Below are positions 53,875-58,630 of a DNA stretch of 64,000 nucleotides, in pieces. The translations under genes were made by a program, and so were the position numbers. The notes beneath the pieces are model-generated. The model had not been told where the DNA came from. It worked only from the letters and a program-made list of their open reading frames with translations, and made no database searches. The number at the start of each line of letters is the position of its first letter. The first letter of the stretch is position 1. The stretch comes from Planctomycetota bacterium (GTDB lineage Bacteria > Planctomycetota > Planctomycetia > Planctomycetales > Planctomycetaceae), in NCBI GenBank assembly GCA_003388505.1, contig QQVO01000039.1, positions 1-64,000 of the forward strand, given 5' to 3'.

Positions 53875-54017
53875 GGGGAGCGGGTTGGATTCAGGAGGAG
53901 GCGCCGTTTGAGTTTCGCTGCACAGGGGGCTCGCTTCGCTCGCCCCCTGCCACCGGTCGAGTGGACGGTGTGCTGGCGCCGCATTCGCGGCTCGGTGCTT
54001 CGGTGTTGAACTCATTC

Positions 54018-54035
54018 AGCGGGCTGACGCCCGCT
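54018..54035. repeat. AGCGGGC-TGAC-GCCCGCT hairpin
   Basis: A 7-bp stem with a TGAC loop. The same loop recurs in CCCGAGGC-TGAC-GCCTCGGG at 58582-58601, suggesting a family. Confidence 0.5.
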
Positions 54036-54209
54036 GCTATCTGCTTTCGCGGCTTCGCCGCTGTTAGCGCCGCGCGGCGGCAGTGTTCTTCTTCGCGCAG
54101 CAACAGGAGCGCGCGTGTGACCCGGGTTGGGCGGGCGTATCATGTGGGGTTGGGGCTGAGCCCCATTCGACGGAAACAGGAACCGGTTCGCAAGTCCCGG
54201 GACGAATCG

Positions 54210-55295: not shown

Positions 55296-56897
55296 ATGAC
55301 CACGCAGCAAATCAAGAGTGGAAGCCAGGTTTCTCTTCAGGACGACGTCGAGACGCTGCCGTTCAGCCTGCCGCTTGAACTGACGGTGCGGGATACGGAG
55401 GTGATCGCCGCGCTGTGGGAGTACGCAGACGGCGACGCGCGGGAGGAGTTTGCGCTGCGGGCGCTGCGGATCGGCGTGCTGGCGCTGCAGCAGGCGCAGG
55501 GACAGATTGACGCGGGCGCGGTGCGGCAGGAGGGGGAACGGCTGCTGAAGAACGTGGAAGGGGCGCTGGAGAAACATCAGCAGTTGCTCAACGAGCGGAT
55601 GACGTCGCAACTGAAGGATTACTTCGACCCGCAGAACGGCCGGTTTCAGGAGCGGGTGGAACGGCTGATCCGGCAGGATGGTGAGCTGGAGCAGGTGCTG
55701 CGGCGGAACATCGGGGAGGACGACAGCGAACTGTGCCGCACGCTGGCGGCGCATATCGGGGACCAGAGTCCGGTGATGCAGTTGCTCGATCCCGAGGGGA
55801 GCGACGGACTGACCGCCGAGCTGCGAAAGATCGTTGAAGAGAAACTGCACGAGCAGCGGCAGAGGTTGCTGGAACAGTTCTCGCTCGACACGGAAGAGGG
55901 GGCGCTCTGCCGGTTTCTGGGCGAGTTGCGGAAACATTACGACGGCGTGAGCGGCGACCTGACCGAGAAGATCGACAAAGCGGTGGGCGAGTTCTCTCTG
56001 GACGATGACAACTCGGCTCTCAGCCGGCTGGTGACGCGCGTCAAGACGGCGCAGGAAACGATCACCAAGGAATTCTCGCTCGACGAGGAGAAGTCGGCAC
56101 TGTCGCGGTTGCGGAACGAGTTGACGACGCTGCTGAAGGACCAGACGAAGACGAACCAGGAGTTTCAGGAAGAAGTCAAAGTCGCGATTCGCGAACTGCA
56201 GGCGAGGAAGAAGGAAGCGGAACGGTCGACGCGGCACGGGCATACGTTCGAGGAACAGCTCTATGCGTTCGTTGAAGGGGAAGCGTTGCGGGTGGGGGAC
56301 GTGGCCGAGTTTACGGGGAACACGACGGGACTGCGGAAGAACTGCAAGGTTGGGGACGTTGTGCTGGCGTTGAATCCGGAGAGCGCGGCGGCCGGGGCGA
56401 AGATCGTGCTGGAGGCGAAGAAGAAGGCCCACGTCAAACTGGCGCAGGCGCTGGAGGAATCCGAGACCGCGCGGAAGAACCGCGGGGCGCAGGTGGGGCT
56501 GTTCGTGTTCTCACAAGGGACTGCGCCCGAGGAGATGGAGCCGGTGATGCGGTACGGGGAGGATGTGGTCGTCGTGTGGGATCACGAGGATCCGTCGACG
56601 GACATCTATCTGAAGGTGGCGTTGACGCTGGCGCGAGCGCTGTGTGTGCGGGAGCAGCGGAGCAATGTCGCGGAGGCGGCCGACCTGGAGCAGATTGACC
56701 GGGCCGTGATTGAGATTGAGAAGCGGGCGGGGCAGCTTGATGAGATTAAGTCCGGCGCGGAGTCAATCAAACGGTCGGCGGACAAGATCCTCAAGCGCCA
56801 AGACCTTATTCGCGAAGCACTCAACAAGGAAGTTGCTGTATTGCAGGAGCGAACGAGCGACCTGCGCAGCCTGCTGGGAGAGAGCGACGGAGGTTAG
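55296..56897 (+). CDS. Coiled-coil protein with PD-(D/E)XK-like core
   Basis: A 533-residue protein of no family I know by name. Residues 70-310 are largely coiled coil and include three copies of an FSLD..(S/G)AL.R(L/F) unit (195, 233, 260). Residues 314-430 form a compact alpha/beta section with GHTFEEQL (E319/E320), GDVVLAL (Asp354) and VLEAKKK (E373, K375). The D...ExK spacing matches PD-(D/E)XK nuclease cores, much as in DUF2130 proteins. The C-terminus is helical. First gene of a four-gene operon. Nuclease activity is an inference. Confidence 0.7.
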   Translation: MTTQQIKSGSQVSLQDDVETLPFSLPLELTVRDTEVIAALWEYADGDAREEFALRALRIGVLALQQAQGQIDAGAVRQEGERLLKNVEGALEKHQQLLNERMTSQLKDYFDPQNGRFQERVERLIRQDGELEQVLRRNIGEDDSELCRTLAAHIGDQSPVMQLLDPEGSDGLTAELRKIVEEKLHEQRQRLLEQFSLDTEEGALCRFLGELRKHYDGVSGDLTEKIDKAVGEFSLDDDNSALSRLVTRVKTAQETITKEFSLDEEKSALSRLRNELTTLLKDQTKTNQEFQEEVKVAIRELQARKKEAERSTRHGHTFEEQLYAFVEGEALRVGDVAEFTGNTTGLRKNCKVGDVVLALNPESAAAGAKIVLEAKKKAHVKLAQALEESETARKNRGAQVGLFVFSQGTAPEEMEPVMRYGEDVVVVWDHEDPSTDIYLKVALTLARALCVREQRSNVAEAADLEQIDRAVIEIEKRAGQLDEIKSGAESIKRSADKILKRQDLIREALNKEVAVLQERTSDLRSLLGESDGG

Positions 56898-56924
56898 TTC
56901 CGGTGAGCGTGAGCGGAGGACGGG

Positions 56925-57431
56925 ATGCAGAACCGGGATATTGATGAGTTTTTTGCGGAGGCGGATCTGGTTGGAAGCGTTCTTCGCAGCGACCAGCCGC
57001 CGGTGGCGTTGTGGGAGTTTCGGGGGCTGGGGTTTCCGATGCTGATTCAGACGCAGGAATCGGTCGATCGCATGCGGATTGTGGTCTTCATCGGAGAGGC
57101 GGGTGAGTTGAGCAGCGATCAGATGCGGGTGCTGCTGGAGGCGAATTATCACTCGGCTCTGGACGCTCGCTATGCGATCACGGAAGGGCATCTGGTCGCG
57201 CTGTTCCTGCATCCGTTTGAAGAACTTTCCGAGACGCAGTTCATTCTGGGGCTGTATCAGGTGATCAACTGTGCGGCGACGTGCGGCACGACGTTTTCAG
57301 GCGGAATTATGGTGTTCGGGCCGCCGGAGGAACCGTCGATTGGAAACGACGGCGCCCGACTGGTTGACGAACCTCGGCGGGACATCCGCGGCGAGGTGAT
57401 CGCGATGATTCGCGGAGGAGATGAGGCATGA
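56925..57431 (+). CDS. CesT/YbjN-type fold protein (putative)
   Basis: A 168-residue protein that resembles the small type III secretion-chaperone/YbjN fold in pattern: MRIVVFIGEAGELSSDQMRV, then LLEANYHSALDARYAITEGH and LVALFLHPFEELSETQFILG. The likeness is general and uncertain. It lies 27 bases after the nuclease-like gene, and its stop overlaps the DUF3472 start (ATGA). Confidence 0.5.
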   Translation: MQNRDIDEFFAEADLVGSVLRSDQPPVALWEFRGLGFPMLIQTQESVDRMRIVVFIGEAGELSSDQMRVLLEANYHSALDARYAITEGHLVALFLHPFEELSETQFILGLYQVINCAATCGTTFSGGIMVFGPPEEPSIGNDGARLVDEPRRDIRGEVIAMIRGGDEA

Positions 57432-58342
57432 GCAGAATTCGATCGAGTCGCCTGAGAACGGGACGCGGCGGACTGCACGTCGCCGTGATGCTGCCGGCGG
57501 TCATGCTCACTGCCGGGGTCGTTCCGCGTGAAGCGGCGGCCGATAAGTCGCTGGAAGGGATCGCCTGCCGGTCGGTGCACCTGCAATATCCGGCCGAACC
57601 GGCGGTTGCGTTCTACAACGAAGTGACGGTGGAACAGAGCGCGCCGGGGACGTACTTCTGCGTGTGCGGGTTTCACAAGGGGTACTACGGCATCCAGGGA
57701 CTGGCGGACGGCAAGAGGTTGCTGATCTTCTCGGTGTGGGATCCCGGGGACCAGAACAACCCGGAGGAGGTCGACGCGGAACAGCGGGTGAAGCTGCTGC
57801 ATCGAGACGACGCAGTGCGGGTGGGGCGCTTCGGGAACGAAGGGACGGGCGGGCAGTCGTTTTATGACTTTGACTGGGAGATCGGAAAGACGTACCGCTT
57901 CGTGGTTACGGCCCGTGCGAATGGAAAGCGCACCGAATTCGGCGCGTATTTCCTGGACCCGGACGGGAGTGAGTGGAAGCATCTCGTGACATTCTCCACG
58001 CTGGACGAGGCGGGCTCGTTGCGGGGGCTGTATTCGTTCGTGGAGGATTTTCGGCGGAATCGCGTTTCTGCGACGCAGGAGCGAAGGGCGACATACGGAC
58101 CGGGCTGGGTGTTGTCCGCCGAGGGAGAGTGGGTACCGCTTGTGAAGGCGCAGTTTACGGCGGACAGCAACCCGGTGGTGAACATCGACGCGGGGGAAAA
58201 GGAGGGGCGGTTTTTTCTTGCGACGGGCGGGGAGACGGCGAACGATCACACGATGTTGGGCGATGTGATGGCAATCGATCGGGACGATGAGATACCATCA
58301 TTGCTGAAGGAGTGGACCGCAGCGAGTCGGGACGAACAATGA
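57428..58342 (+). CDS. DUF3472 domain-containing secreted protein
   Basis: A 304-residue protein with a probable signal peptide (LHVAVMLPAVMLTAGVVP) and then DUF3472: ACRSVHLQYPAEPAVAFYNE, CGFHKGYYGIQGLADGKRLL, IFSVWDPGD, RFGNEGTGGQSFYDFDWEIG and RRATYGPGWVL. Such domains occur in secreted planctomycete proteins of unknown, possibly carbohydrate-related, role. Start overlaps the CesT-like stop (ATGA) and its stop overlaps the antitoxin-like start (ATGA). Confidence 0.85.
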   Translation: MSRIRSSRLRTGRGGLHVAVMLPAVMLTAGVVPREAAADKSLEGIACRSVHLQYPAEPAVAFYNEVTVEQSAPGTYFCVCGFHKGYYGIQGLADGKRLLIFSVWDPGDQNNPEEVDAEQRVKLLHRDDAVRVGRFGNEGTGGQSFYDFDWEIGKTYRFVVTARANGKRTEFGAYFLDPDGSEWKHLVTFSTLDEAGSLRGLYSFVEDFRRNRVSATQERRATYGPGWVLSAEGEWVPLVKAQFTADSNPVVNIDAGEKEGRFFLATGGETANDHTMLGDVMAIDRDDEIPSLLKEWTAASRDEQ

Positions 58343-58539
58343 CCGACCAGATGAGGCAGGCGTTGCACCGACTCGCAGAGCAGCTTCCTGACGATGCGTC
58401 ATGGGACGACGTCGTGCAGGCGATTTTCGTTTGCTCGAAGATCGAAGCAGGTCTGAAAGACGTTGAGGAAGGCCGGCTGCTCACTGACGACGAGGTGTTT
58501 GCGGAGTTCACCGATGCCCCGAGTTCTTCCTCCCTCTGA
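58339..58539 (+). CDS. Antitoxin-like small protein (orphan)
   Basis: A 66-residue protein (MTDQMRQALHRLAEQL, KIEAGLKDVEEGRLLTDDEV) resembling the RelB/ParD-type antitoxins seen with RelE-type toxins. No toxin frame follows; the next gene is a methyltransferase 91 bases on. It overlaps the DUF3472 stop (ATGA). Whether it acts alone is unknown. Confidence 0.6.
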   Translation: MTDQMRQALHRLAEQLPDDASWDDVVQAIFVCSKIEAGLKDVEEGRLLTDDEVFAEFTDAPSSSSL

Positions 58540-58581: not shown

Positions 58582-58601
58582 CCCGAGGCTGACGCCTCGG
58601 G
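58582..58601. repeat. CCCGAGGC-TGAC-GCCTCGGG hairpin
   Basis: A perfect 8-bp stem with a TGAC loop, in the gap before the methyltransferase gene. Same loop as the hairpin at 54018. Confidence 0.6.
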
Positions 58602-58630
58602 CTCGCCGGTTGGACTCGAAGTAACAAGCC

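Follow-up and report, generated by a model that had tools for sequence, protein, structure and literature searches.

Do four closely packed genes in a planctomycete genome make up a functional system, or is their arrangement incidental to a single nuclease gene? The question is raised by positions 55296–58539 of the window (the whole 64,000-nucleotide stretch of DNA that was analysed), in which open reading frames for 533, 168, 304 and 66 amino acids follow one another on the plus strand (Table 1). The layout is just as the earlier note had described it: 27 bases separate the stop codon of gene 1 from the start codon of gene 2, and genes 2/3 and 3/4 share ATGA overlaps (57428–57431 and 58339–58342, respectively). 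Because all four have homologues in other genomes, we consider them to be real genes. Genes 1–3 each have a ribosome-site-like sequence ahead of the start codon.

Table 1. Coordinates of the four genes, the predicted domains of gene 1 and the downstream hairpin
Feature	Position in the window	Strand	Basis
Gene 1, predicted coiled-coil PD-(D/E)XK nuclease, 533 aa	55296..56897	+	ORF; homologues
Gene 1, conserved N-terminal helical domain, residues about 24–110	55365..55625	+	Alignment; profile matches in divergent members
Gene 1, FSLD repeat units, residues 195–286, 3 copies	55878..56153	+	Sequence
Gene 1, predicted PD-(D/E)XK nuclease domain, residues 312–450	56229..56645	+	Invariant residues; AlphaFold; Foldseek
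Gene 1, putative catalytic-site codons D354, E373, K375	56355–56357, 56412–56414, 56418–56420	+	
Gene 1, C-terminal long helix, predicted coiled coil, residues 451–530	56646..56885	+	AlphaFold model
Gene 2, small family, weakly TY-Chap1/YbjN-like, 168 aa	56925..57431	+	ORF; homologues; weak profile match
Gene 3, DUF3472, signal-like N-terminal segment, 304 aa	57428..58342	+	PF11958 match
Gene 4, RelB/ParD-like antitoxin without a toxin gene behind it, 66 aa	58339..58539	+	Weak RelB_ParD match
GC-rich perfect hairpin 3′ of gene 4, possible transcript end	58582..58603	+	Single exact genome copy

It had been proposed that the cluster could be a novel DNA-processing or defence unit, with the proviso, stated beforehand, that a neighbourhood not conserved with gene 1 would refute this. 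We therefore searched the gene 1 loci of 17 relatives and 80 further named loci, with flanks of up to 8 kb, for genes 2, 3 and 4 using tblastn. None of the three lies near gene 1 in the relatives' loci (0/17) or the named loci (0/80), that is, in any of 97 loci. Genomes holding several of the four genes have them on separate contigs or far apart; for example, genes 1 and 2 are on contigs 52 and 523 of one genome (G020), and genes 1, 3 and 4 are on three contigs of another (G008). Since genes 2–4 are not kept beside gene 1, the idea of a four-gene DNA-processing or defence unit falls, and the awkward presence of a secreted DUF3472 protein therefore needs no explanation. Judged from gene order, genes 2–4 appear to have become aligned behind gene 1 by chance, in this genome alone, and not as its functional partners. 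Tight gene spacing is poor proof of a functional system, and the three followers of gene 1 are seemingly incidental.

A regular partner of any other kind did not emerge either. Among 113 immediate neighbours of the gene 1 family, no Pfam family has more than three members, and each listed PADLOC family matched one neighbour only, at an E-value of 1e-20. These neighbours were delimited by a simple longest-ORF rule, of which the tblastn tests of genes 2–4 are independent. Enrichment in defence islands was considered and was not seen by plain counts of the same 113 neighbours. An McrB-like GTPase is absent among genes 2–4 and does not recur among the immediate neighbours. Mostly, gene 1 stands alone, and no partner accompanies it consistently.

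What, then, does gene 1 encode? No Pfam model matched its product at the model's cut-off, a sequence search of the PDB returned nothing relevant, and PADLOC models gave weak, coiled-coil-level matches (PDC-S06 and Csn2). The latter two, as well as weak matches to GMT-wHTH and Cullin_Nedd8, were taken as chance or coil noise. Two features pointed out in the earlier note are present in the protein: a threefold FSLD motif, whose copies start at 195, 233 and 260, 38 and then 27 residues apart, and a D354...E373xK375 core. The FSLD motif marks a 27-residue unit, its later copies being 27 residues apart, and occurs three times here and four times in a long form of the protein. The core residues D354, E373 and K375 show no variation across an alignment of 73 homologues, and the full set of invariant positions also includes G315, F318, D335, G353, E388, N395, R396 and W428.

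In the AlphaFold model, built with the 73-row alignment, the nuclease core is predicted with pLDDT values of about 97, those of residues 320–450 being mostly about 94–98. It comprises a helix (314–333), three strands (336–339, 355–358 and 369–375), a second helix (382–396) and a further strand (400–406), giving the order alpha-beta-beta-beta-alpha-beta; more strands follow, and then a 98-residue helix. D354 opens strand 2 and E373 and K375 end strand 3, as in PD-(D/E)XK nucleases. Long helices (268–310 and 433–530) flank the nuclease domain, within an overall arrangement that is uncertain (pTM 0.43). The first 13 Foldseek matches of the model in the PDB include MspJI, McrC/McrBC, DdmD, AspBHI, EcoT38I and BamHI; the best relevant ones are the first three, with a probability of 0.99 for McrC. 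With the model taken as a whole, the E-values are weak, 9.5e-3 at best, probably because coils dominate it. In a viral structure library, the top matches were proteins of giant viruses, including one labelled Mrr. The nuclease reading put forward earlier is thus borne out by active-site residues kept in 73 of 73 sequences, by the predicted strand order and by top Foldseek matches that are mostly PD-(D/E)XK proteins. By its active site and predicted fold, the gene 1 product is a predicted member of the PD-(D/E)XK nuclease superfamily.

Its plan recalls RmuC, in which a PD-(D/E)XK domain related to McrC lies between coiled coils and which has been linked to DNA recombination (PMC1189080). In the model of gene 1 the nuclease domain also lies between coiled coils. 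On the other hand, the RmuC profile (PF02646; COG1322) matched neither gene 1 nor 18 family members, the N-terminal domain and repeat spacer are unlike RmuC, and no N-terminal membrane helix is evident in either the sequence or the model, residues 1–25 being hydrophilic and mostly disordered. Gene 1 can therefore be described as RmuC-like in plan but, as far as profile comparison indicates, not RmuC. RmuC itself was not found in the 21 planctomycete genomes searched (this one and 20 relatives). Likeness to the Mrr_cat (PF04471)/McrC/MspJI group lies in the predicted fold, the D...ExK site, the Foldseek matches and a weak Mrr_cat match in 6 of 18 family members (best E-value 3.2e-4), which was not detected in the window protein itself; unlike that group, gene 1 carries no domain known for DNA recognition and is partnered by neither an McrB GTPase nor a methylase. 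Coiled coils are likewise combined with nuclease domains in the CoCoNuTs (coiled-coil nuclease tandems, Type IV), which are predicted to target RNA (PMC11090510), but these include an McrB-like GTPase and an McrC homologue, neither of which was seen beside gene 1.

Homologues of gene 1 were found in 18 of 99 related genomes, at about 39–61% identity. A GTDB scan yielded 93 encoding stretches, 80 of which were kept as the named loci, many of the family's loci coming from metagenome bins. The kept loci belong to Planctomycetota, Pseudomonadota, Myxococcota, Acidobacteriota, Chloroflexota, Actinomycetota, Spirochaetota, Thermodesulfobacteriota and Poribacteria. The family thus has a patchy distribution that takes in nine or more bacterial phyla and, through divergent members, haloarchaeal plasmids; its tree shows mostly phylum-wise clusters with some cross-phylum mixing. 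Viral contigs gave no match to the single gene 1 sequence and one divergent relative to the alignment; the main family was found neither in phages nor, at full length, in plasmids. In plasmid records its members are labelled 'hypothetical protein' or 'restriction endonuclease' only. No Pfam or NCBIfam model recognises the family, which is unnamed.

The divergent relatives comprise proteins of six haloarchaeal plasmids (385–417 aa), one from a putative viral contig and one paralogue in this genome. They keep the plan of gene 1, including, by profile matches, the N-terminal helical domain, as well as the D...ExK site, except that Lys is replaced by Arg in the paralogue and in one other relative. 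Their gene contexts are diverse. VWA and MBL-fold neighbours are common to three of the six haloarchaeal plasmids (L225–L230), and helicase genes are near in several. The paralogue's locus (L045, 2070–16514; G000 contig 2) contains Type I restriction, methylase and specificity genes, BrxC/D-like ATPases and PDC-S54. AddAB or UvrD/PDDEXK_1 genes adjoin relatives in L074, L085/L086, L125 and the Halosegnis (haloarchaeal) plasmid L228. As a general partner AddAB was rejected, being absent from about 30 later loci, where the sole exception is a UvrD-like gene at a distance of 2.5 kb.

Among Chloroflexota, about 18 of 251 genomes were found to have a shorter form of gene 1. Five of the 12 loci retrieved encode Ku on the same strand, 103–148 bp downstream, and in a sixth a single gene intervenes; LigD comes next in three (the Ku-linked loci are L276, L278, L279, L281, L282 and L284). 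Such proximity suggests an additional nuclease serving end joining in bacteria, though it is seen in only one subfamily, whose loci may share a single inherited gene order. Another Chloroflexota relative, closer to the main family than the shorter form is, has an OLD-like ATPase on one side and a GmrSD_N protein on the other in a same-strand array that also contains an Eco57I-type methylase (L273, 5268–14130); this array is a candidate defence cluster. Separately, one genome (G327) carries a damaged gene 1 copy with an in-frame stop (L223, 189–9615), with P-loop and SIR2-like ORFs, recognised by eye, nearby.

Which role would suit such a protein? We see about an even chance that gene 1 encodes a stand-alone PD-(D/E)XK nuclease of an unnamed family acting on DNA ends or branched DNA, genes 2–4 being incidental. 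In the mechanism we envisage, the N-terminal helical domain and a variable, repeat-built helical spacer would lead to the nuclease domain, followed by the long C-terminal coiled coil. The coiled coils would hold the nuclease on DNA as a dimer or higher oligomer, and it would trim or cut DNA ends or branched DNA in double-strand-break processing, similarly to the action thought for RmuC. A DNA-repair role is favoured by the divergent relatives near Ku/LigD (Chloroflexota) or AddAB/UvrD-type genes; against it, close relatives as a rule have no repair-gene neighbour, and some relatives reside in restriction or defence clusters. A broader proposal is distinctly more tentative: gene 1 may represent an undescribed family of coiled-coil DNA-end nucleases of bacteria and haloarchaea, which separate lineages would have recruited to end joining with Ku/LigD, to resection with AddAB or to restriction clusters, and may be the missing end-processing nuclease where RmuC is absent.

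Alternatively, gene 1 might be a single-gene anti-phage or anti-plasmid nuclease, anchored by its coiled coils and degrading incoming DNA, which we regard as possible but on balance doubtful. A precedent is ShdA, the coiled-coil RmuC nuclease of Shield, which provides phage immunity as a single gene (PMC10270631; PMC11090510). Since ShdA shows that an RmuC-like plan can defend against phage with one gene, a defence role is conceivable for gene 1. Gene 1 shares with ShdA a predicted long coiled coil and PD-(D/E)XK-type nuclease domain, whereas ShdA, found specifically in Pseudomonas, is bound to the membrane and contains an RmuC domain. The patchy distribution and cross-phylum mixing are consistent with defence, as are the Chloroflexota array, the damaged copy near P-loop and SIR2-like ORFs and the distant paralogue in the Type I restriction-modification and BrxC/D cluster of this genome, but that paralogue has Arg for the catalytic Lys. 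Moreover, gene 1 resembles PADLOC families at the coiled-coil level only, each defence family was seen in just one of the 113 neighbours, and the failure to find the main family in phages or, at full length, in plasmids also argues against such a role.

It is rather improbable that gene 1 acts on RNA, or that it is mainly a structural coiled-coil protein with the nuclease fold serving as a binding module. Helical, coil-like segments are predicted to make up more than half of the protein, and the predicted RNA targeting by CoCoNuTs, a coiled-coil Type IV branch, offers a parallel. However, the residues for metal binding and catalysis do not vary among the 73 sequences, and the haloarchaeal relatives retain them too; a protein with no more than a structural task would not need this. 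The structural relatives found by Foldseek cut DNA. The weakest reading, a lineage-specific unit of genes 1–4 (for example, a nuclease with a chaperone-like regulator and an antitoxin), would account for the tight packing, the overlaps, the ribosome-site-like sequences and the single-copy hairpin but is very hard to credit, given that no relative keeps any of genes 2–4 near gene 1 and that neither an orphan antitoxin nor a secreted DUF3472 protein has an obvious tie to a nuclease.

As for the individual identities of genes 2–4, the description of gene 2 as CesT/YbjN-like is tentative: TY-Chap1 (PF22551) matched weakly one of five relatives (E-value 0.005) and did not match the window protein. 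Its homologues occur in 6 of 99 related genomes, and a single-sequence fold model (pLDDT 47) was too poor for a fold search. The assignment of gene 3 to DUF3472 proved right (E-value 5.8e-86; 288.9 bits against a curated cut-off of 24.8), and homologues are present elsewhere in 49 of 99 related genomes. Gene 4 had been called antitoxin-like, in agreement with a weak RelB_ParD match (E-value 0.0096) and with ParE/RelE-like ORFs downstream of its homologues in several loci. No toxin gene follows it in the window, where a sole 14-codon ORF occupies the position of the relatives' toxin; gene 4 is thus a putative orphan RelB/ParD-like antitoxin without its toxin. The hairpin beyond gene 4 has no T run, and a terminator scan made no call there; having one copy in the genome, it was ruled out as a repeat element. 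Upstream of the operon, an Acido-Lenti-1 RNA (RF01687) was detected on the plus strand at window positions 54017–54062, scoring 45.2 bits where the gathering score is 37.
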